Positions 19,318-34,076 of a stretch of DNA of 64,000 nucleotides are shown one piece after another. Made by a program: the position numbers and the translations under genes. Numbering within the stretch: the first letter of the stretch is position 1; the number at the start of each line of letters is the position of its first letter. This DNA is from Microcaldota archaeon (GTDB taxonomy: Archaea > Micrarchaeota > Micrarchaeia > Micrarchaeales > Micrarchaeaceae), in assembly GCA_021827995.1 (NCBI GenBank), contig JAKATK010000002.1:1-64000 (forward strand), in the 5' to 3' direction. Under the pieces are notes generated by a model. The model had not been told where the DNA came from, did no database searches, and saw nothing but the letters and a program-made list of their open reading frames with translations.

Positions 19318-20685
19318 ATGCCAACGGGCAGCGTGCTCAGCCGCACCAGCTTCCTGGTGCTAGCCGTAGCAGCGGTGCTGATCCTGACCCAGGTACCGAC
19401 CGCGGTAGCGTTCAGCCAGAGCGCGTACACGAACAACTGCCCGTCCACTGGTCAGTTCAACGACGGCCTCTGCCCGCTGTGCGTCTTCACTAACACGATA
19501 GGGCCGATAGGCGACTGCGTAGAGTCTACAATACCATACTGGGCGATAGGGATAATGCTCTCGTTCGCGATGGTCGGCATAGCCTACATGCTGGGCGAGG
19601 TGCTGAACCTGAGCGGCTTGAAGAACTGGTACCAGGGCGAGCTCTGGGAGTCGACCAAGACCATAATAATAGTCGTGATAGTCTTCGCCACACTGATACT
19701 GCTGAGCGGCATAGGGGACGCGCTGGCTGGCCCGTACGTCCCGACCGGATCGCCAGCATCCTCGTTCTCGCAGGTCACCGGCGGCACCAGCATGGGCTCG
19801 GTGATAACGAACAACCTGCAGGGATTATACGGCGCCGACGAGGCTTACCTGAAAAATGGTACGACATATCTGAACAACGCCTTCGGCAGCCTCTTGGGCG
19901 CCGCCATGGGCATAGACTTCCTGAAGAGCGTTACATTCAATCTGTGGTTGCCGCTGCCGATATTCCCGCCAGTAATCCAGGTATCGGTGGACGAGGGCTC
20001 GACGGGCAACATCTTCTACAGCAGCATAATAGACTCGCAGTTCGCGTCTCCGTCATACTCCATGCTCGGTGCAGCTGCGCGACTTGTGGTAGTGCCCACG
20101 CTCATCATAATGGAGCTGCAGTATGGTACAGTGACAACTGCACCGCCAAACGGCCTCTTCATTACCATCGTCATGCTCGGCCTGGGCCTGTTCATTCCAT
20201 TTGGCATAGTCATGAGGGCGTTGCCATTCTTGAGGGGTCTCGGCGGCACAATGCTGGCCATAGGGATAGGGCTCTCGATCGTGTATCCAACGCTGCTTGT
20301 GGCGATCAACCTGCCAGTTACCGACATGGTCCTGGGCCAGGCCGTATTCGCCACCTCGCCGCAGGCGCAGTCGCCCTGCAGCGCCGGCCTGCTGTGCTTC
20401 CTTATACAACCGATACAGCAGGCCTTTTCGAGCGTCTCCACCGCGGCAAACAGCCTCGTGAGCTTTGGCTCCGGCTTCGGCTCCGCGACTGGGACCGTGT
20501 TCGGCGTACCTTCAAGCGTATACCCGGTGGCCAACCTCGTGACGACGAACATACTTGTTGCGCTGCTGCAGTTCATACTCTTCATAATAGACCTGATAGT
20601 TGGCTACACGATCATACGCGACGTGGCAGCGCTTATGGGCGGCTCTGTCAGGCTCAGCCTGGGCAGGCGCATGAGTCTTGTGTGA
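19318..20685 (+). CDS. Six-paralog membrane family, member 1
   Basis: 455 residues. A cleavable-looking signal peptide (1-33) is followed by an outer loop with four Cys (CPSTGQ...CPLC...DC). Then comes motif 1, a helix pair around AYMLGEVLNLSGLKNWYQGE and the next helix (74-135), and a long central region. Motif 2 is IVMRALPFLRGLGGTMLAIG with IVYPTLL (around 300-335), and the last helix ends in a short tail with LMGGSVRLSLGRR. ATG 19318 is preceded by GGTGG at a Shine-Dalgarno distance. No catalytic motif. The six genes 19318-27110 share this plan; a channel or secretion-pore role is a guess only. Confidence 0.8.
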   Translation: MPTGSVLSRTSFLVLAVAAVLILTQVPTAVAFSQSAYTNNCPSTGQFNDGLCPLCVFTNTIGPIGDCVESTIPYWAIGIMLSFAMVGIAYMLGEVLNLSGLKNWYQGELWESTKTIIIVVIVFATLILLSGIGDALAGPYVPTGSPASSFSQVTGGTSMGSVITNNLQGLYGADEAYLKNGTTYLNNAFGSLLGAAMGIDFLKSVTFNLWLPLPIFPPVIQVSVDEGSTGNIFYSSIIDSQFASPSYSMLGAAARLVVVPTLIIMELQYGTVTTAPPNGLFITIVMLGLGLFIPFGIVMRALPFLRGLGGTMLAIGIGLSIVYPTLLVAINLPVTDMVLGQAVFATSPQAQSPCSAGLLCFLIQPIQQAFSSVSTAANSLVSFGSGFGSATGTVFGVPSSVYPVANLVTTNILVALLQFILFIIDLIVGYTIIRDVAALMGGSVRLSLGRRMSLV

Positions 20686-20686
20686 C

Positions 20687-21970
20687 ATGACCGGCTTCGT
20701 TTATATGGGCAGTGCGCGGCGCACCTCGCTGCTAGCCCTGCTCGTCGTAGCGCTCCTGATCTCAAGGACGTACGCGACAAGCTGCAACAAGCTCACAGCG
20801 TTCAGCGACGGCTGGCTCGGCATAAATTTCCTGGTCATACTCGTCAGCATAGTCATCATATCCGCGGTGTACATGCTGAGCAATTTCGTGCCAGGACCGA
20901 CTAGGGCGAAGATAACCAGCCTGACGAAGGTGGAGCTAACGCAGGTGTTCATAAGCGCCATAATAATAACGGCACTGCTAGGCTTCACCACCGTGGCCAG
21001 CAGCATATCCACTTACATGACCAGCGGCCTGACGCAGTCGGCTAGGACAGGCACGGGGTCGACACAGTTCTGCGACCCGTTCCAGTCGGCGGAGTTCTAT
21101 GTCAGGAACCTCACGTTCAACACCGGCATAAGCCTGGTCAGCTCCATCTACGGCACGTCAGTGTCGTATGCCATAGACTCGCAGGCATTCGATGCGCTCT
21201 TTCAGGGCATATACGCAAATATGCCTGCGGAATCCGGTATCGCATCTGGAGTCCCGCTCGGCTTTGCGAAGGTCACGTTCATCCTGGGCTCGAACATAGG
21301 CGTGGCATACAGCACTTTCAGCGGCGCGCTCATGGACGTGTTCTCCCCATTCATGATGGTCGGCATGGGCAGCCTTTACATACAATTCGTGCTGCTGCCG
21401 CTGATACAGGCAATCGCATTCGTGGTCATCCTGCCTGTCGCACTGATAATGAGATCGCTGGCTTTCGCTGGACAGGGGCTGAGGCCTGCCGCTAACACCG
21501 TACTAGCAATAGCGATAGCTGCGTACATAGTCTACCCGATGATGGTCAGCTTCGACCCTGTGCTAATGAACTGGATCTTCACGCAGTGCGGCAGCACAGT
21601 TTCAACGCAGAACAGCTTCGGCTGCAACCCGACGAGCGGCTACGTAGGTACCGGCTACGCGCTCAGTAACATACAGGCAGCGCAGTTCCTGCAGTCAAGC
21701 CCGATAAACAGCGGCATAAGCTTATTCAACATACACTTCAATGTACCGGCAATTACCACAACGCAGTTCGTCAACGCCCTAGGCTACTTGAGCCCCGCCA
21801 GCGTAGTGTCATCGCTGCAGACCATAGCGAACAGGATGTCGCAGTTCCTTTTCCAGAGCACCTTCCTGTTCGCCTTAGACATGGCCATCACGATGGGCTT
21901 CGCGGTGGGCCTGGCCAAGGCGCTGAGTAGCGGCATAGAGGGCGCGGCTTCGTTCTGGAGCAGTCTGTGA
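20687..21970 (+). CDS. Six-paralog membrane family, member 2
   Basis: About 427 residues. The start is ATG 20687 (right after the previous stop) or ATG 20705, which directly precedes a good signal peptide (MGSARRTSLLALLVVALLIS). Motif 1 is VYMLSNFVPGPTRAKITSLT with the following helix. Motif 2 is LIMRSLAFAGQGLRPAANTV with IVYPMMV near residue 280, the most divergent of the six because the GG pair is missing. It ends with a helix and ALSSGIEGAASFWSSL. The outer central loops are Ser/Thr/Asn-rich. It overlaps or abuts its neighbours, as expected of one operon. Confidence 0.8.
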   Translation: MTGFVYMGSARRTSLLALLVVALLISRTYATSCNKLTAFSDGWLGINFLVILVSIVIISAVYMLSNFVPGPTRAKITSLTKVELTQVFISAIIITALLGFTTVASSISTYMTSGLTQSARTGTGSTQFCDPFQSAEFYVRNLTFNTGISLVSSIYGTSVSYAIDSQAFDALFQGIYANMPAESGIASGVPLGFAKVTFILGSNIGVAYSTFSGALMDVFSPFMMVGMGSLYIQFVLLPLIQAIAFVVILPVALIMRSLAFAGQGLRPAANTVLAIAIAAYIVYPMMVSFDPVLMNWIFTQCGSTVSTQNSFGCNPTSGYVGTGYALSNIQAAQFLQSSPINSGISLFNIHFNVPAITTTQFVNALGYLSPASVVSSLQTIANRMSQFLFQSTFLFALDMAITMGFAVGLAKALSSGIEGAASFWSSL

Positions 21971-21979
21971 GGCGGTGCC

Positions 21980-23608
21980 ATGATACCTATTATGCTGTCT
22001 ACAACGACGGTGGGAAGCGCGATAGGCTCGTGCGCGCAGCAGTCGACCGGCCTGGCCGGCTCGCTGAGCATGTGCGCTGCCCAATCGAATCTGGTGCCGA
22101 TAATCATAATCGCGTTCCTGCTCGACTCCGCCATAATAAGTATCTGGTACATCGTCGGCTACCTGCTGAACAGCAGCAAGATCAAGGCCGGCGCTACGAG
22201 CGAGGTCGTGCAGCTCATAGGCACGGCAGTCATAATCGCGGCCATACTAGGCATAATGGCGCTCTTCGCGCAGACGTATGGTGCGGCGACGGCATCTACG
22301 CCATTGGGCAGCAAGTCGATGAACGCCATATGCACGAATCTGGCCAACCCGACCACCGGCTCGCAGTTGGACATATTCTCAGGCAACATGATAAGTCCGC
22401 TGTACAGCGGTAACTCGCAGGGACCGTACAACTTCCTCGATGGATGGATCGGCACCACCAGTAGCTTCCCGGGGCTGTGCAGTATGGTGACGAATCCATC
22501 GACCCCGACGGAGCAGCTTGACTACCCACTGGCTGCCACGAGCGTTGTCATAGCGAATATAACCAACCAGACGCTAAGCAACCTGAACTCGCTCTTCGTT
22601 GTTGACTCGTTCATAGGCTTCCTCGACTTTTTCTCGCCACAGATAAACATCTGCGTGCCGCCGACAGACACACCACAGTGCTTCCTGCCGAACCCTGCAG
22701 AACCCATACTATTCGGAATCCAGGCGTCGTACACCCCGTATGCCGGCTACGACTTCCTTTACGAGGCATATGCGCCTCTGGGCGACCTGCTTAGTCTGGC
22801 ATTCGAATCCTACTTCGCGCAGTTCCTCTTCGTGATGGCCATGCTCTTCGTATGGCCATACATGCTGTTCATCGGAATAGCGCTGCGCGCGACGCCGTTC
22901 ACCAGGAAGGTCGGCGGCATGTTCATAGCCATAGCTGTAGGCGCAGTGATACTGCTGCCCATCGTGTACGGCATCGAGTACTCGGCGATGGCCGGTGGGA
23001 TACCGCAGCCATCGCAGGCCACAGTATTCAACTCGTTGAACTACGGCTTTAGCCCGGTCACGAAGATACCGCAACTGTGCGAGCCAGGCGACAGCAACTG
23101 CTTCACGTCGCCCTACATCAGCACCAGCATCGTTGGCGCTGTGTTCAGCGTAACCGGTACGCCAAGCCCGTGCGCGGCGCCGGCATCGTTTACCCCGCTG
23201 ACATCCTCGAGCGATTGCTTCACGAACTACTCTGTGAACTTCTTCGTCACGCCGAAGTATGACCAGATTGCGCACTATTACGGCTGCTGGCACAGCAGCC
23301 TGATTCGCGCTGAGCTGACGGACATCGATGAGACGCTCATACCAGGAGCTAACCTTGTCGGCGGTGCTATAAGCGCCTTTGGGGGCTCCACGCCGAGCAC
23401 GCCCATCAGCTACCCGCTGATATACGGCTGCACTCCTGCCGGCGGCGAAGGCCTGCTGTTCTCGTTCTTCAACGCCTACGGGGTCACGGGCGTCACTGCG
23501 TACTTCCTGCCGATGATAAACCTGCTCATAGTGATAGCAGGAGTCATAGGCTTATCGGGCGCGCTCGGAGGCGACACCGAGTTGGCGGGTCTCGCAAAAC
23601 TGGTGTAA
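21980..23608 (+). CDS. Six-paralog membrane family, member 3 (largest)
   Basis: 542 residues. The N-terminus lacks an obvious signal peptide: a short outer segment with two Cys (SCAQQ..., MCAAQ) leads straight to the first helix (SNLVPIIIIAFLLDSAIISI). Motif 1: WYIVGYLLNSSKIKAGATSE. The central region is longer than in the others, with about ten Cys in pairs (CVPPTDTPQC, CEPGDSNC, CTNYS-like, YYGCWH), suggesting disulfide-bonded outer loops. Motif 2: IALRATPFTRKVGGMFIAIA. The C-terminus ends in GALGGDTELAGLAKLV. Start ATG 21980, with GGCGGTG upstream. Confidence 0.8.
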   Translation: MIPIMLSTTTVGSAIGSCAQQSTGLAGSLSMCAAQSNLVPIIIIAFLLDSAIISIWYIVGYLLNSSKIKAGATSEVVQLIGTAVIIAAILGIMALFAQTYGAATASTPLGSKSMNAICTNLANPTTGSQLDIFSGNMISPLYSGNSQGPYNFLDGWIGTTSSFPGLCSMVTNPSTPTEQLDYPLAATSVVIANITNQTLSNLNSLFVVDSFIGFLDFFSPQINICVPPTDTPQCFLPNPAEPILFGIQASYTPYAGYDFLYEAYAPLGDLLSLAFESYFAQFLFVMAMLFVWPYMLFIGIALRATPFTRKVGGMFIAIAVGAVILLPIVYGIEYSAMAGGIPQPSQATVFNSLNYGFSPVTKIPQLCEPGDSNCFTSPYISTSIVGAVFSVTGTPSPCAAPASFTPLTSSSDCFTNYSVNFFVTPKYDQIAHYYGCWHSSLIRAELTDIDETLIPGANLVGGAISAFGGSTPSTPISYPLIYGCTPAGGEGLLFSFFNAYGVTGVTAYFLPMINLLIVIAGVIGLSGALGGDTELAGLAKLV

Positions 23609-23611
23609 GCC

Positions 23612-24814
23612 TTGGGTCGTGCAAAGAATTTCAAGCCTGCGCTCGGCGCGCTCATAGTGGCGACTATACTCATGGGCGGCTTCGCGTGGGCGACTGGAAC
23701 AGGCACATCATCGAGCGGAGCCACTACGTCGCTGCCCGCCATAATACCGACCAACACGTGCGCCAATATGATAAATGACGCGGGCGGCGCCTTCGGCAAT
23801 GCCGGAGCCTACACCTCGCTGCTCGGCTATGCAGTGCTGATAATGCTCGTCATGATGGCGGCCGCCGGCCTGATCTACGCCCTCGGCTACGCCTTCGGCA
23901 TAGACAAGATGATCAGGTTCTCGAAGTCAGAGCTGGGCGAGATAGCGGTAACTGCCGTGGTGGTCGGCGTGCTTATAGGGACATGGTCTGCAGCGACTGC
24001 GGCGCACAGTGTGGTCAGCGGCACTGGAATTCTGCCGATAGCCGGCGGCCAGTTCAGCAGCCAGGTCTTCGTCAGCAACTGTAACTACCTCATCGGCGGC
24101 TCGGAACAGATACTGACGCCGCTCGTCGTACTGGCGCTAGAGAACATACCGCTCAGCCTAGCCTCGTCGACCGCGATATCGCTTGAACCGACCGGCTTTG
24201 GGATAGCCTTCAAACCCCTCGCCGGCCTGTCCTTCCTGAACGGCCTACTGGGCTTACTGGTCAGCATAGGCGGCATGGTATTCGGAGTACTCTTCGGCTT
24301 CGGAGCGTTCATGGCGATCATCTACGCTCTCTTCCCGATCTTCCTTTTCGTCGGCATCGTGCTCAGGACAATACCTGTTACGAGGCCCGCGGGCGGCGCC
24401 TTCCTGGGGCTGTTCGTCGGCTTCTACATATTCTTCCCCCTTCTGCTCAACCTCATGCTCACGTACCTGCAGGGCGCGACGCCGGCTTCCATGGCGATAC
24501 AGTTCTGCAACTCGCAAGTGAGCGGCACTAACGTGCTGCAGTACTTCAACGCGATGGGCAACTGTTTCGGCAGCACTGGCCTGACGTTCGGCGCGCTGAT
24601 AAGTGGCGGCTCCGGTCTCATAAACGGTTTCACATCAGTGCTGGAGGTCAACCCGATATCGATATTCATAGTGAACGTAATAGAGCCGGCCTTCTACACA
24701 CTTCTTGCCGTTATCATGTCGCTGGTGCTGTCGTACGACTTCATGGAGACACTGGCATCGCTGCTGGGCTCTCCGAGCCTGAAGTCCCACACGGCGCTCA
24801 AGAGCGTGATATGA
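23612..24814 (+). CDS. Six-paralog membrane family, member 4
   Basis: 400 residues from a TTG start at 23612, three nt after the previous stop. N-terminal signal-peptide-like helix (GALIVATILMGGFAWATG). Motif 1: IYALGYAFGIDKMIRFSKSE with the next helix GEIAVTAVVVGVLIG. Motif 2: IVLRTIPVTRPAGGAFLGLF near residue 255, then a helix with FFPLLL. The last helix contains DFMETLASLLGS. Fewer cysteines than member 3. The basic loop in motif 1 (RFSKSE) is predicted inside the cell. Confidence 0.8.
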   Translation: MGRAKNFKPALGALIVATILMGGFAWATGTGTSSSGATTSLPAIIPTNTCANMINDAGGAFGNAGAYTSLLGYAVLIMLVMMAAAGLIYALGYAFGIDKMIRFSKSELGEIAVTAVVVGVLIGTWSAATAAHSVVSGTGILPIAGGQFSSQVFVSNCNYLIGGSEQILTPLVVLALENIPLSLASSTAISLEPTGFGIAFKPLAGLSFLNGLLGLLVSIGGMVFGVLFGFGAFMAIIYALFPIFLFVGIVLRTIPVTRPAGGAFLGLFVGFYIFFPLLLNLMLTYLQGATPASMAIQFCNSQVSGTNVLQYFNAMGNCFGSTGLTFGALISGGSGLINGFTSVLEVNPISIFIVNVIEPAFYTLLAVIMSLVLSYDFMETLASLLGSPSLKSHTALKSVI

Positions 24815-25942
24815 ATGTACGCCAAACTAACCGCAATGGCCCTGCTGTCGCTGCTCGCGATATTCGCAGCGACTGGCATTGCGCAGGCCGCGCGGGCGCC
24901 CGTCCAGTTCGCGCTCGGCGTGGCAACGTACACGCCGCCGCTACTGAGCAGCTGGGAGGCCATCGCATCGATAGCGATCCTGACCGTGATAGGCGTCGCG
25001 GCCATGGTATACATGCTGGCTGGCGTAATCACGAGCCCGAACGCCAGGGCGTGGTCCCGTATGCAGGTATACGAGGCGCTGCTGTCGATGGCGCTCATTG
25101 TGATCTTCGGCGCATTCTCATCGATGCTATTCATGAACCCGATCGGATCGTTCGGCGGCCCTGCGAGCGGTATGACCGGCATCAACGGCGTGAACGTGGT
25201 GCCCTACGCATGCAACGGCGCCCAAACGATGTACGACCTGTCGACGTGCGACATAAGCACATTCGTCAGTACAGCGATAAGCTACTTCGCGGCGTTGTAC
25301 TATGCTGGATGGGGCACTGCGCTGGTGCCTGGCGTCAGCATAAGCACATACCCGCTCACCTTCCTCGGCCAGTCTTCGATAACCTTCGGCGGCGAGGTAC
25401 CGAGCCTATTCCCGAGCAGCGTGATATCCATGATGTCTATGGCCGAATCAGGCCTCCTGCTGCTCATAATGCTCAACCAGATGCAGGTCCTCATACTCGG
25501 GTCTGCGATACTGTGGCTCTCATTCTTCATGGTGCTCGGCCTGGTGGCGCGCACCTTCGGCTTCACACGCACGTTCGGTGGGGCGATGATAGCGTTCGGG
25601 CTTGGTCTAGGGGTCATATACCCGTTGCTGGTCAGCATAAGCTACGGCTTCGTTAACGTGCAGATGCAGTGCGGCGTGCCAGGTGCACTGCCCGGCTGCC
25701 TCACTCCAGGCGGCGCGGCTATTGACATAGTGGGCCTGGTGATAGGCCTAGCCCTAGGCACGGTGACCGGCGGCGCCTCGCAGCTCAATCCGAACACGAT
25801 AGTGCAGCTGGGCTATCTGGTCACCGGCCTGCTGATAATACCAATGCTCAATTTCGCAGTGCTCGATGCGTTTATAATAGACTTCTCGAGAGCTATAGGG
25901 GAGCGCGTGGATTTCATGTCGCTCCTAGGAAACCTCGTGTGA
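24815..25942 (+). CDS. Six-paralog membrane family, member 5
   Basis: 375 residues; ATG 24815 directly follows the previous stop. Signal peptide 1-25 (LLSLLAIFAATGIAQA). Motif 1: VYMLAGVITSPNARAWSRMQ plus the next helix. The outer loop contains the pair VPYACNGAQ...STCDIS. Motif 2: LVARTFGFTRTFGGAMIAFG with VIYPLLV (around 250-275). A Cys pair (QCGVPGALPGC) lies in the last outer loop. Ends DFMSLLGNLV. The repeated pattern with its neighbours, including motif order and C-terminal Leu-Gly motif, supports origin by tandem duplication. Confidence 0.8.
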   Translation: MYAKLTAMALLSLLAIFAATGIAQAARAPVQFALGVATYTPPLLSSWEAIASIAILTVIGVAAMVYMLAGVITSPNARAWSRMQVYEALLSMALIVIFGAFSSMLFMNPIGSFGGPASGMTGINGVNVVPYACNGAQTMYDLSTCDISTFVSTAISYFAALYYAGWGTALVPGVSISTYPLTFLGQSSITFGGEVPSLFPSSVISMMSMAESGLLLLIMLNQMQVLILGSAILWLSFFMVLGLVARTFGFTRTFGGAMIAFGLGLGVIYPLLVSISYGFVNVQMQCGVPGALPGCLTPGGAAIDIVGLVIGLALGTVTGGASQLNPNTIVQLGYLVTGLLIIPMLNFAVLDAFIIDFSRAIGERVDFMSLLGNLV

Positions 25943-25955
25943 CAATGGTGTTCGC

Positions 25956-27110
25956 TTGCGCATGAAGAATCTGATGGCTGGGCTCGCGCTGATGGCGATT
26001 GTGGCCACGCTAGTGGCAGCGCCGTTAGCCACCGCAGGAGGCGGGGGTGGCGCGATACCGTGCGGCGGAGTGCCGCAGAGCATAGCCGAGCACCTACAGA
26101 GCAACGAGGCTTGGTACTGCCCGATAAACCAACAGATAGCCGCCCAGTGGGCCAACAGCATGCCGATAGCCATAGTGGCTGTGCTGCTGGCGTTTACCGT
26201 CGCGGCCATAATATTCATGATAGGCACAGCGGTTAAGAGCGACAGGGTGCGCAACTTTGGCGTGGGCGAGTTGTACGAGGCGCTTGCCAGCGCGATAATT
26301 GTGGCGGCTTTCATGTACGTCGCGTCAGTTGTTTTCGGCTACGGCCTAGGCGCACTGGTCGGCCCGGTAAACCCTTATGCAGTATCGTTCAACCTGATAA
26401 CCAATACCGTGAGCACCGCGGAGCAGTTCTACAGCACGCTGTACCAGATATACTTCCTTGACTCTTTCTACGCATCGATTAACGTGAACATATATGGCAA
26501 CATCGAGTCGCTCGGAGCAGGTTCAATCGCGCAGATATTGGTCGCAGGCAACGGAGCCCTGAACCTGCTCAGCATGGCGTACAAGTTCCCGCTGGTATTC
26601 TTCTTCATCCAGCCTGCGGATCTTGTTTCAAAGCTGCTGAGCGACGGCATACTCGCGCTCTACGGAGAGTACTACCTGCTCGTGTTCTTCGCGGTTTCTG
26701 CGATACCGGTTTTCCTCGTGCCAGGGATCGTATTCAGGGCAATCTACCCGACGAGGGCATTCGGCGGCATGCTGATAGCGCTGGCGATAGCGTTCTATCT
26801 TGTAATGCCTGGCCTCTTCTCGATAGCGTACTACTTCACCACACCACAACTGCAGCAGCAGCTAAGGACCGGCGCTTCGCAGCTTGCCCTTTACGGGTCG
26901 GGCTCAGGCGCCATCACCAACGCGCAGTCATCGACATCACCGATAGTTGAGACACTCGGGACGATCAACGCTGCGATGAGCTCGTTCTGGCTGCTCATAC
27001 TATTCTACCCCGGCCTGATAATAGCAGTAACCTACTCGTTCGTGACACAGATAGCGAATTTCATAGGTGGGGCTTCTTACACCGGCAGCAAGCTGCGCTC
27101 GTTCATATGA
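25956..27110 (+). CDS. Six-paralog membrane family, member 6
   Basis: 384 residues from TTG 25956 or ATG 25962. Signal peptide 1-30 (LMAIVATLVAAPLATA) followed by a Gly-rich start of the mature protein and a Cys pair (CGGVPQ...WYCPI). Motif 1: IFMIGTAVKSDRVRNFGVGE with the next helix EALASAIIVAAFM. Motif 2: IVFRAIYPTRAFGGMLIALA with LVMPGLFS near residue 260. The last helix ends in FIGGASYTGSKLRSFI. It closes the operon; the convergent proS stop lies 6 nt downstream, leaving almost no room for separate terminators. Confidence 0.8.
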   Translation: MRMKNLMAGLALMAIVATLVAAPLATAGGGGGAIPCGGVPQSIAEHLQSNEAWYCPINQQIAAQWANSMPIAIVAVLLAFTVAAIIFMIGTAVKSDRVRNFGVGELYEALASAIIVAAFMYVASVVFGYGLGALVGPVNPYAVSFNLITNTVSTAEQFYSTLYQIYFLDSFYASINVNIYGNIESLGAGSIAQILVAGNGALNLLSMAYKFPLVFFFIQPADLVSKLLSDGILALYGEYYLLVFFAVSAIPVFLVPGIVFRAIYPTRAFGGMLIALAIAFYLVMPGLFSIAYYFTTPQLQQQLRTGASQLALYGSGSGAITNAQSSTSPIVETLGTINAAMSSFWLLILFYPGLIIAVTYSFVTQIANFIGGASYTGSKLRSFI

Positions 27111-30426: not shown

Positions 30427-30606
30427 ATGCCGCGCAGATGCACTTACTGCACAAGGGAGATACCGTTCGGCACTGGTATGATGTACGTGCAGCGCGGTGG
30501 CGAGGCGCACTTCTACTGCTCGAGGCGCTGTTTCAGGAACAGCGTCGTAATGCATAAGCGCTTCAACAAGAAGGAGCTCGTAACTAAGAGCGCCGCAAGG
30601 ACCTAG
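30427..30606 (+). CDS. rpl24e: Ribosomal protein L24e
   Basis: 59 residues, too short for many gene callers. It has the L24e zinc finger CTYC...CSRRC with FGTGMMYVQRGGEAHFYCS between, and the downstream FRNSVVMHKRFNKKELVTKS. Stop TAG 30604-30606 overlaps the stop of the convergent ftsZ gene by 4 nt. Confidence 0.93.
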   Translation: MPRRCTYCTREIPFGTGMMYVQRGGEAHFYCSRRCFRNSVVMHKRFNKKELVTKSAART

Positions 30607-31691
30607 CGCTTCTTCTCCTCTTCGAAAATCTCGTCTAGGTCGAGCTTCTCGGTCTCTTTCATCTTCCTGGCTATGCCCTCCTCAGTGTACTCAGGGAAAT
30701 CGACACCGCTGACGACGATCATGACGCGCAGGGCATCGCGCTGCATGTTCTGTTCTATCCTGGCGCCCCACTTGAGCATCGCGTCCTTGCTTATCCTGCG
30801 CGCCACCTCCTGGAAGACGGTCTCGGCCTCGCGCAGGGTCAGGCTCTCGCCGCCCACGATGTTGACGAGCGCCTTCTTCGCGTTTCCGAGGCTAGCGTCG
30901 AGGAGCGGGCTCTTTATCGCGTTCTCTAGAGCTATCGATGCGCGGCCGGTGCCGTCGCTCGCGTTGGCGCCCTCCCCGGAACCTATGACCGCGTAGCCGG
31001 ACTCCTTCAGCACCATCTTGAGGTCGGCGAAGTCTATGTTGACCATTCCCGGCTTCGTGACCATCTCCACTATGCCCTTCGTGGCGCTGGCTAGAACCTC
31101 ATCGGATACCCTGAATGCCATGTTGAGCGGCAGGTCCGGCGCTATCGCTAGGAGTTTGTCGTTGTGGATTATGATGACGGTGTCAGCAACCTTGCTAAGC
31201 TTAGACAGGCCCTCCAGGGCGTTGCGCATGCGCATCTTGCCCTCGCTGGAGAACGGTAGCGTAACAATAGCCACGGTCAGCGCGCCCACCTCCTTTGCCT
31301 CATGCGCTATGACGCTAACCGAGCCGGTGCCGGTGCCGCCGCCCAAGCCGCAGGTAACAAAAACCAGGTTGGAACCCTCGAGCAGGTGCCTGATCTCCTC
31401 CCTGCTCTCTATCGCCGCTTCCTCACCGACCTTGATGTCGCTGCCTGCGCCGAGACCCCTGGTGACCTTCTTGCCGAGAAGCAGCTTGCGCTCGGCCTTG
31501 GTCTTGACGAGATGCGGCGCATCGGTGTTCATGGCTACCGTTATGGCACCCTGCACGCCCACGCCTGCCAGCCTGGCTATCGTGTTGCTGCCGCTGCCGC
31601 CGGTGCCGACTATATATATTTTAGGCTTGGCGCTCTCTATGAACTTCAGTATCTCCTCATCGTCAGGTGAAAGAACCTCGGTCGCCTCCAT
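30603..31691 (-). CDS. ftsZ: FtsZ-family GTPase (copy 1)
   Basis: 362 residues from ATG 31691; the open frame runs further upstream but without FtsZ-like sequence. GTP-binding blocks: IYIVGTGGSGSNTIARL, the tubulin signature LGGGTGTGSV, and the synergy (T7) loop NIDFADLK. After the GTPase core there is a short acidic/basic tail ending DEIFEEEKKR. In archaea FtsZ1/FtsZ2 form the cytokinetic rings. This copy has an N-terminal 25-residue acidic extension (EATEVLSPDDEEILKF). Divergently transcribed from copies 2 and 3, with a 270-nt AT-rich gap between. Confidence 0.93.
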   Translation of the reverse strand: MEATEVLSPDDEEILKFIESAKPKIYIVGTGGSGSNTIARLAGVGVQGAITVAMNTDAPHLVKTKAERKLLLGKKVTRGLGAGSDIKVGEEAAIESREEIRHLLEGSNLVFVTCGLGGGTGTGSVSVIAHEAKEVGALTVAIVTLPFSSEGKMRMRNALEGLSKLSKVADTVIIIHNDKLLAIAPDLPLNMAFRVSDEVLASATKGIVEMVTKPGMVNIDFADLKMVLKESGYAVIGSGEGANASDGTGRASIALENAIKSPLLDASLGNAKKALVNIVGGESLTLREAETVFQEVARRISKDAMLKWGARIEQNMQRDALRVMIVVSGVDFPEYTEEGIARKMKETEKLDLDEIFEEEKKR

Positions 31692-31961
31692 CGCCAATCG
31701 CCCGATTAGTGTTTCTCGGAAAGAGATAAAAACCTGATTGTGCACTCGTCGATTCGGGGCGATGCGCACGCGCAGAATCCGACGCTTCATGCCGCAATAT
31801 CGCATTGTATATAAGTATAAATTATTTACTTTTACTATACTTTTATTTATTTGTGTAAAAGATTTTATTTTGGCGGCCGCTTTTGCTCTATGCGCGCATT
31901 GGCGTGACCTGGAGAGAGCTTTTTTAAATCTATTGATGCATATCACTACCAGGTGACCAGT
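31692..31961. promoter_or_regulatory. Divergent ftsZ promoter region
   Basis: The stretch 31800-31875 is strikingly AT-rich (TATATAAG, ATAAATTATTTA) and can supply the promoter of the minus-strand ftsZ. For the plus-strand ftsZ a TATA element TTTTTAAAT is at 31921-31929 and a Shine-Dalgarno AGGTGA at 31951-31956. Confidence 0.6.
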
Positions 31962-33005
31962 ATGAGCGACATCAACAGTGTAATTGCGGAGCCGAAGGCT
32001 TCCGAGGAGTTCGGCGCGGCAGAGATAAAGATCGTTACTGCCGGGTTTGGCGGGGCGGGCAACAACATAGTTAACCGTCTTCTCAAGGCGGGTGTGAAGG
32101 GCACCGAGTTCATTGCACTCAACACCGACGCCCAGCACTTCAAGCTTGTTGACGACAGGATAAAGAAGATACTTATAGGTAAGAGCATAACCCGCGGCCT
32201 GGGCGCTGGCGGCGATCCGAAAATCGGCGAGAAGGCGGCCGAGGTAGACAGGCAGACTATAGAGGAGGCGCTCTCTGGCTCCCAGCTGGTATTTCTGTGC
32301 GCTGGCATGGGCGGCGGTACGGGCACTGGCGCGATAAAGGTCGCGGCACAGGTGGCGAAGGAGCAGGGCGCCATAGTCGTCGCTATGGTTACATACCCGT
32401 TCGACCTGGAGCGCGTTCGCAAGGTCAAGGCTGAGGAGGGCATACAGGAGCTCCGGAGGTACAGCGACAGCGTGATCATACTGGACAACAACAGGCTGGT
32501 CAAGCTGGCCCCGAACCTCCCGATGGACGAGGCGTTCAAGTTGGCCGATGAGGTGCTGGCCAAGGCCATAGGCGGCCTTGTCTGGACCATAACGCAGCCT
32601 AGCCTGATAAACATAGACTTCGCTGACGTGAGGTCCATAATGGGCAACGGCGACGTGGGCTTCATAGCTGTAGGTAACGGCAAGGGCAACGACAAGGTGG
32701 GAATAGCTGCCGAGGCTGTGCTCAAGAACAAGCTCCTGGACGTCGACTTCGAGGGAGCGTCAGGTGCCCTCGTGCACATATCCGGCGGCACCTCGCTAAC
32801 CATAGGTGATGCGATAAAGGCTGGCGACCTCATAACGAGCAGGATGGACCCGAAGGCCAACATAAAGTGGGGGGCGCGGATCATACCGGGCTTCGAGGAT
32901 CAGATCGAGATCGTTGCCATAGTCACTGGCGTAAAAGGCTCTAGCATTGTCGGCAAGCCTGAGATGAAGCAGAAGGCGCCGTACAGCGAACTGGAGTCCA
33001 TATGA
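31962..33005 (+). CDS. ftsZ: FtsZ-family GTPase (copy 2)
   Basis: 347 residues from ATG 31962, 5 nt after AGGTGA. Intact GTPase motifs: IVTAGFGGAGNNIVNRL, MGGGTGTGAI (tubulin signature) and NIDFADVR (T7 loop). The C-terminal subdomain follows (KWGARIIPGFEDQIEIVAIV), then a short tail ending APYSELESI. It shares the LGKSITRGLGAGG and DLERVRK-type wording with copy 3, 36 nt downstream, and is closer to it than to copy 1. It is expected to polymerise with GTP. Confidence 0.94.
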   Translation: MSDINSVIAEPKASEEFGAAEIKIVTAGFGGAGNNIVNRLLKAGVKGTEFIALNTDAQHFKLVDDRIKKILIGKSITRGLGAGGDPKIGEKAAEVDRQTIEEALSGSQLVFLCAGMGGGTGTGAIKVAAQVAKEQGAIVVAMVTYPFDLERVRKVKAEEGIQELRRYSDSVIILDNNRLVKLAPNLPMDEAFKLADEVLAKAIGGLVWTITQPSLINIDFADVRSIMGNGDVGFIAVGNGKGNDKVGIAAEAVLKNKLLDVDFEGASGALVHISGGTSLTIGDAIKAGDLITSRMDPKANIKWGARIIPGFEDQIEIVAIVTGVKGSSIVGKPEMKQKAPYSELESI

Positions 33006-33041
33006 AGGCAGGCGACGCCTTCATCACGTTTGGGTGAGTAT

Positions 33042-34076
33042 ATGGTTTTGGAGAACCCGGATTCGGAAGAGTTTAGCGCGAAGCTTGCGGTGGTTGGCCT
33101 CGGCGGGCAGGGCAGCAACCTGATAAACAGGTTGTACAACAGCGGCATAAAGAGCGCCGCGACGTTTGCCTTCAACACCGACGCCAAGCACCTCAACATA
33201 GTCAGCGCGCACAGGAAGCTGCTCCTTGGCAAGAGCATAACCAACGGGCTGGGCGCAGGCGGCTACCCAGAGATTGGTGCCAAGGCTGCGGACGCGAGCA
33301 GGACGGAGATAACGAACCTGCTGCAAGGCTACGACCTTGTCTTCCTCGCTGCCGGCATGGGAGGCGGCACAGGGGGCGGCTCAGCGCCGGTGGTGGCGCA
33401 GATAGCTAGGGAGCAGGGCTCGCTAGTCGTGGCTTTCGTGACGTACCCGTTCGCGCTGGAGCGCAGCAGGAAGACAAAGGCCGACTGGAGCCTGCAACAG
33501 CTCACGAAGAACGCAGACACGACGATAATAATCGAGAACGACAGGCTGCTGAGCTACGCACCGAACCTGCCGATGGAGAAGGCCTTCGAGCTCATAGACA
33601 ACATCACGGCCAACGCGGTCAAGGGCATAGCGGACACGATAATGCTGCCTAGCCTGATAAACCTCGACTACGCTGACGTGCGCACTGTCATGCGCGACGC
33701 TGGTGCAGCTGTGATAAACATAGGCACTGGAAACGGCAGCGACAGGGTAGAGCACGCGATAAAGTCTACGCGTTCGCACCCGCTGCTGAACGTCGACACC
33801 ACCGGAGCGAAGAGCGCGATGGTACACGTGACCGGAGGGACCTCGCTGACGATAGACGAGGCCACGCGGGTTGGCGCAGGGGTCACGGAGGACCTTGACG
33901 CGAAGGCGAATGTCATATTCGGAGCCAGGCTTATGCCGGACATGGGCGACCAGCTTAGGGTGATGTCGATAATCACAGGGGTCAAGCCAAGGCTCGGGCA
34001 GGGCATACCCGAACCGAGGGGCTACGACAGCAAGTACGCAGCGTCCGACTTGAACCTAGGCCTCGAACTGATATGA
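33042..34076 (+). CDS. FtsZ-family protein with altered tubulin signature (copy 3)
   Basis: 344 residues from ATG 33042, with GGTGAG 6 nt before. The FtsZ fold is complete: AVVGLGGQGSNLINRL, LGKSITNGLGAGGYP, the T7 loop NLDYADVR and the C-terminal subdomain. The tubulin signature reads MGGGTGGGSAP where functional FtsZs have GGGTGTG: the last Thr is Gly. That Thr lies against the GTP phosphates, so GTP binding or hydrolysis may differ, although several FtsZ-like/CetZ relatives tolerate changes here. The C-terminal tail (RGYDSKYAASDLNLGLEL) differs from copy 2. Probably co-transcribed with copy 2. Confidence 0.9.
   Translation: MVLENPDSEEFSAKLAVVGLGGQGSNLINRLYNSGIKSAATFAFNTDAKHLNIVSAHRKLLLGKSITNGLGAGGYPEIGAKAADASRTEITNLLQGYDLVFLAAGMGGGTGGGSAPVVAQIAREQGSLVVAFVTYPFALERSRKTKADWSLQQLTKNADTTIIIENDRLLSYAPNLPMEKAFELIDNITANAVKGIADTIMLPSLINLDYADVRTVMRDAGAAVINIGTGNGSDRVEHAIKSTRSHPLLNVDTTGAKSAMVHVTGGTSLTIDEATRVGAGVTEDLDAKANVIFGARLMPDMGDQLRVMSIITGVKPRLGQGIPEPRGYDSKYAASDLNLGLELI

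Follow-up and report, generated by a model that had tools for sequence, protein, structure and literature searches.

An ordered array of six VirB6-like paralogues, candidate channel subunits of a type IV secretion-like machine in Micrarchaeota

We analyzed a 64,000-nucleotide stretch of a micrarchaeal genome (assembly GCA_021827995.1, contig JAKATK010000002.1, positions 1 to 64,000; hereafter, the window), which carries a tandem array of six genes for polytopic membrane proteins, V1 to V6, at positions 19318-27110. The source genome comprises 1.26 Mb in 22 contigs and is 88% complete; its named relatives are Micrarchaeota, among them Ca. Micrarchaeum A_DKE and ARM-1. A previous reading of this DNA, made from the sequence only, had described six abutting or overlapping genes on one strand, each encoding 375-542 residues, and the coordinates of the open reading frames (ORFs) bear this out, with all six on the plus strand and successive genes separated by gaps or overlaps of at most 13 nucleotides (Table 1). 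Each protein has five to eight hydrophobic segments, and the outer regions vary widely from member to member, both in length and in sequence.

Judged by their profiles, the six are true paralogues of common ancestry, as the sequence-only reading had held. Pairwise comparison of the family profiles with hhalign gave probabilities of 96.3-99.5% (E values of 1.6e-9 to 4.1e-23), as against at most 2% for the six-transmembrane (6-TM) neighbor family and at most 3.6% for an unrelated 13-TM family, both of which are polytopic and come from the same loci as the arrays. Because these controls score below 4%, we reject membrane-composition noise as the source of the similarity. The two motifs proposed for the array fared unequally: motif 2 (an Arg and Gly-Gly motif said to be wanting in member 2) was found in five of the six members and never arose when each protein was shuffled 500 times, whereas motif 1, which had been claimed for all six, occurs in its strict form in members 1 and 3 only and extends to all six once relaxed. 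Searches of Pfam with V1-V6, and of NCBIfam and PHROGs with the array members tested, returned nothing significant.

The order V1 to V6 is conserved across Micrarchaeota, and it is this count and order that is new here. Of 60 close relatives, 56 have V6, and a wider sample of 295 genomes from across the phylum gave a match to the V6 profile in 257. We also examined 20 remote arrays, carried by 12 genomes that belong to other families of the class, and every array has six members; 8 of these genomes contributed two arrays, with six members in each (two members of the L173 array were initially masked by an overlapping ORF, and one member of the L163 array scores weakly). In the 40 complete arrays of the named loci, V1-V6 occur once each and in order, and none has five or seven intact members. 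The L119 array, in which V3, V4, and V5 are each spread over two ORFs (through frameshifts, assembly error, or decay), is the only complete-looking one without six intact genes. Among the remote genes, the best-matching orthologue type coincided with the position in the array in 65 of 120 cases, where 20 were expected and the maximum in 20,000 permutations was 40. In a tree of 108 proteins, V1, V2, V3, V4, V5, and V6 each formed one clade with a support of 100; genes from five remote arrays joined V2 at position 2 (97), V5 at position 5 (95), and V6 at position 6 (74, which is weak), while those at positions 1, 3, and 4 formed clades of their own (98, 97, and 91). The deep branches of this tree are long and about half of its inner branches are weak, and we claim no branching order from it. 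By these phylogenetic and positional data, the six lineages are older than the divergence of the sampled families, and the old duplication surmised earlier is upheld by the fully supported clade of each member.

Table 1. Genes of the array and other features of the window
Feature	Description	Position	Strand	Remark
U	6-TM protein, 243 aa	18558..19289	+	In most Micrarchaeales arrays, an orthologue lies directly upstream of V1
V1	VirB6-like paralogue 1, 455 aa	19318..20685	+	N-terminal hydrophobic segment, outer Cys-containing region, motif 2 RALPFLRGLGGTM
V2	Paralogue 2, 430 aa	20678..21970	+	GG motif absent
V3	Paralogue 3, 542 aa, longest of the six	21980..23608	+	V3-type at position 3 in 20/20 remote arrays
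V4	Paralogue 4, 400 aa	23612..24814	+	
V5	Paralogue 5, 375 aa	24815..25942	+	
V6	Paralogue 6, 384 aa	25956..27110	+	AlphaFold2 model pLDDT 84.7, pTM 0.77
FtsZ-family gene	First of three clustered	30603..32138	-	
FtsZ-family gene	Second of three clustered	31953..33005	+	
FtsZ-family gene	Third of three clustered	33030..34076	+	

What kind of protein the six may be is suggested by fold and by context. When the V6 model was compared with 350,542 PDB chains by Foldseek, TrwI/VirB6 of plasmid R388 took ranks 1 and 4 (probability 0.97-0.98); the matched chains, at 260-261 residues, are longer than TrwJ/VirB5. Among viral models, phage TrbL came at rank 5. Polytopic V1-V6 are, moreover, encoded alongside VirB4- and VirB2-like genes, as synteny in relatives reveals, which is the setting expected of VirB6. 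A VirB6 identity for the six is thus suggested by a structural model and by neighborhood, not by sequence.

In Micrarchaeales, the gene order is a pilin-like gene (not always adjacent), U, V1-V6, T1, T2, an ATPase, and further small genes; V6 and T1 usually adjoin, with a median gap of 53 nucleotides. U itself is not homologous to the six (hhalign probability of about 2% at most). The relatives do carry the VirB4/HerA neighbors that the sequence-only reading had proposed to look for, together with VirB4-N-terminal-domain-like proteins and a VirB2-like pilin. The array ATPase (503 aa) matches the P-loop families DUF87/AAA_10/TraG, has the consensus Walker motifs GITGAGKS and VVLDEAW, and is strongly matched in 57 of 60 close genomes. 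Against NCBIfam, its best match was CedD (E value of 7e-22), followed by VirB4-like CD1110 and CedB, all ahead of HerA, with scores below the curated cutoffs (77.7 of 600 bits for CedD and 63.2 of 700 bits for CedB), and its PDB matches were HerA and VirB4 (4ag5); on these scores it is a relative, not a member, of CedB/CedD. In some loci, a gene of about 100 aa directly follows the VirB4-like ATPase (L070:11513-11824, L078:11511-11813, and L172:12281-12580) and resembles a stand-alone ATPase C-terminal domain (profile positions of about 421-500).

T1 and T2 are 2-TM proteins in which two hydrophobic helices precede a VirB4-like domain, an arrangement that suggests a fused VirB3-like anchor. 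The six best PDB matches of the T2 model (pLDDT 84.2) were all R388 VirB4 entries (probability 1.00-0.89); two of the six are VirB4-only entries, and in the complexes the identity of the chain was taken from its length. The T2 sequence is colinear with residues 24-283, the N-terminal part, of a VirB4 model (E value of 0.003). VirB4 is, in other words, split over several genes in this type IV secretion-like machine. As for the pilin, the sole match of its profile (A8) below an E value of 1 among PDB sequences was R388 TrwL/VirB2 (8s6h; E value of 7.7e-4, nearly full length). The region of the V4 family running from TM1 through the loop to TM2 weakly matches this pilin profile as well (77%, E value of 2e-5), and V2 is, like V4, weakly similar to it.

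A second and simpler locus is common among relatives and combines a pilin-like gene with single genes for a VirB6-like protein (sGG), a T-like protein, and an ATPase (examples are L034-L041, L051, and L067-L069); it was not found in the source genome, which is incomplete. T1, T2, and the T-like protein of this locus are homologous by hhalign, and PDB sequence searches with the V6, T1, T2, and sGG profiles gave nothing meaningful. In other families of Micrarchaeota, the arrays are flanked by single-TM proteins of 1,300-2,000 aa, which were without a Pfam family where tested; some of these (1,300-1,670 aa) lie beside one of two arrays (L165:14673, L167:15332, L171:13152, and L163:2227). Such proteins may be substrates or proteins of the cell surface.

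In the source genome only U and V1-V6 are found together; T1-T2-ATPase lie on contig 12 and the VirB2-like pilin gene on contig 11 (G000:C11:8306-8593). We considered whether contig ends could account for the motor genes lying apart from the array, and this is ruled out by the prolyl-tRNA synthetase gene that follows the window array on the opposite strand and by six other loci in which T1-T2-ATPase have no array upstream, although at least 3 kb of sequence is present there. Rearrangement has broken up the locus here, as it has in some other genomes.

Taken together, we propose that V1-V6 are VirB6/CedA-like channel subunits of a domesticated machine, core to Micrarchaeota and akin to a type IV secretion system (T4SS), and that they most likely form a one-of-each hetero-hexameric ring on a VirB4-like motor; we put the probability of this reading at about 0.62. 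One copy of each paralogue would take a fixed position in the ring, which would be seated on the hexameric motor. Through it, substrate would move between the cytoplasm and a contact site or short VirB2-like pilus. The 503-aa ATPase would be the VirB4 motor, with T1/T2 perhaps equivalent to VirB3 plus the VirB4 N-terminal domain. Helix positions, charge, and an N terminus placed outside after signal cleavage would put both conserved Arg loops in the cytoplasm, facing the motor. In R388, the VirB6 pentamer rests on six copies of VirB3 and on six VirB4 dimers arranged as a hexamer, with two VirB4 subunits per protomer (PMC9259494, PMC12624023), and it may be that the two VirB4-N-terminal-domain-like proteins of each array mirror this pairing. 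What we infer, as opposed to observe, is the ring, its stoichiometry, and its cargo. The sequence-only reading had already suggested a hetero-oligomeric VirB6/TrbL/CedA-like channel; fold match and neighbors favor it, and the heteromer idea is now much stronger because the six genes keep a fixed order across the phylum, the outcome of the survey of array size that had been suggested with it. A hetero-hexameric ring is the best explanation, since separate channels would not need a fixed copy number. A bolder version, to which we would give somewhat less than even odds, is that the channel is an obligate hetero-hexamer matched to the VirB4-like hexamer, without the bacterial 5:6 mismatch, and serves as a core host-contact or DNA-uptake organ; its subunits would then have diverged by position, as in the eukaryotic MCM2-7 ring.

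Several observations weigh against this proposal. The match of V6 to R388 VirB6 is modest (E values of 0.04-0.11 and TM-scores of 0.26-0.43). PF04610 had no match in the source genome at an E value of 10, and in hhalign V1-V6 scored below 1% against nine bacterial VirB6 sequences and against the VirB6-like protein of Sulfolobus conjugative plasmids (pKEF9/pNOB8/pHVE14); membership in PF04610 by sequence thus failed, and the comparison with VirB6/TrbL at this level, which the sequence-only reading had called for, detected no homology. Likewise, PF03135 (VirB4 N-terminal) had no match in the genome, and neither VirB8 nor VirB10 was identified. The VirD4 coupling protein (PF02534) was found in 1 of 21 genomes, as a borderline match, and in none of the other 20. 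The source-genome array is not adjacent to its motor genes, and six genes are not proof of a six-membered ring.

A mobile origin was also considered and rejected. We found no relatives of sGG in plasmids or phages, and none of V6 or sGG in IMG/VR. Because the array occurs across the phylum, no plasmid, phage, or viral-contig match was obtained, and nearly all genomes checked lack VirD4, we argue for a domesticated cellular machine rather than a conjugative element. Its probable cargo is nucleic acid that the cell takes up from its host or exchanges with it; as a role for the machine, such import, or exchange by way of a contact organ, is the one we find most attractive.

With regard to cargo alone, a competing possibility, which is compatible with the ring and which we consider plausible if less probable, is that the machine exports proteins or attaches the cell to its host, handling surface or effector proteins in place of DNA. 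The large single-TM proteins that flank arrays in other families would suit such a role, as would the facts that Micrarchaeota attach to host cells (PMC8975820) and that a patescibacterium needs its T4SS genes for growth as an epibiont (PMC12102498). However, the motor is closest to the DNA-translocating CedD, VirB4, and CedB, which does not in itself decide the cargo. It is unlikely, in our judgment, that V1-V6 are VirB6-like proteins which each form a homomeric channel of their own, for a different substrate or condition, on one shared motor. The divergence of the outer regions would be in keeping with this, and a single-type channel seems viable given that the sGG locus has its own pilin-like gene, N-terminal-domain-like protein, and ATPase; yet independent channels should vary in number, whereas count and order are fixed over the phylum, even in genomes with two arrays of six, and a single array-type ATPase accompanies the six genes in Micrarchaeales. 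Least probable of all is an unrelated hetero-oligomeric complex that uses a HerA-type ATPase, for although no sequence links V1-V6 to VirB6 and the E value of the fold match falls short of significance, the VirB4-like T2, the VirB2-like pilin, and the VirB4/Ced-type motor independently indicate a T4SS, and the V6 model has VirB6 as its top PDB match and phage TrbL as its fifth among viral models.

Returning to the proposed hetero-hexameric machine, its interest is twofold. Those Micrarchaeota that have been cultivated need host cells, and a coculture report describes attachment but names no machine (PMC8975820); a phylum-wide T4SS-like apparatus is a direct candidate for host attachment and parallels the T4SS of patescibacterial epibionts. 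In addition, the role of the mismatch between VirB6 pentamer and VirB4 hexamer in bacteria is unclear, and six ordered, ancient VirB6-like genes bear on it; if the number of paralogues reports ring size, the arrays predict a six-membered VirB6-like ring. Our literature search, which covered sources other than subscription papers and preprints, found no paper in which VirB6 and Micrarchaeota are both named, and what it found on DPANN and VirB6 concerns Patescibacteria or other bacteria. The machine is T4SS-like and resembles Ced/Ted in its logic, and its sixfold paralogous channel is not described in the sources searched.

The closest archaeal systems are Ced of Sulfolobales (CedA, CedA1, CedA2, CedB, CedD, and CedE) and Ted of Thermoproteales (PMC9905601, PMC11868833). 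Like the present machine, these are archaeal, chromosomal, and derived from T4SSs, with a polytopic VirB6-like channel, a VirB2-like pilin, and a VirB4-type ATPase whose N-terminal domain is divided between proteins, and the weak resemblance that V4 and V2 bear to the pilin parallels the one reported between CedA and CedA1 (PMC9905601). However, the Ced/Ted channel is encoded by one gene (CedA) or two (CedA and CedE), as against six ordered VirB6-like paralogues here (CedA/TedA being compared by description). The present machine also differs in that its VirB4-N-terminal-domain-like domains reside in two separate membrane proteins and its ATPase scores far below the curated cutoffs.

Among bacterial systems, R388 Trw supplies the nearest structural or PDB relatives of V6 (VirB6), T2 (VirB4), and the pilin (VirB2). 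Its kind of VirB6 homopentamer faces a hexameric VirB3/VirB4 (PMC9259494, PMC12624023), whereas here there are six different subunits, known from their genes; unlike R388, moreover, the present system has no PF04610 match, lacks VirD4 in nearly all genomes checked, and has no identified VirB8 or VirB10. The rvh T4SS of Rickettsia offers a different likeness, in that one machine of a host-dependent microbe includes several VirB6 paralogues that have diverged strongly and have variable flanks (PMC2653234). Those paralogues are five in number, bacterial, and recognizable by PF04610 (PMC2653234), whereas ours are six, archaeal, without a PF04610 match, and fixed in count and order over a phylum; by analogy, the Rickettsia set would fit the same logic of paralogue number, with five. 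Finally, the T4SS of Patescibacteria is bacterial and kin to monoderm conjugation machines, and its tandem expansion is one of pilin genes (PMC12102498), but there too a reduced T4SS has been retained by ultra-small epibionts (PMC12102498).

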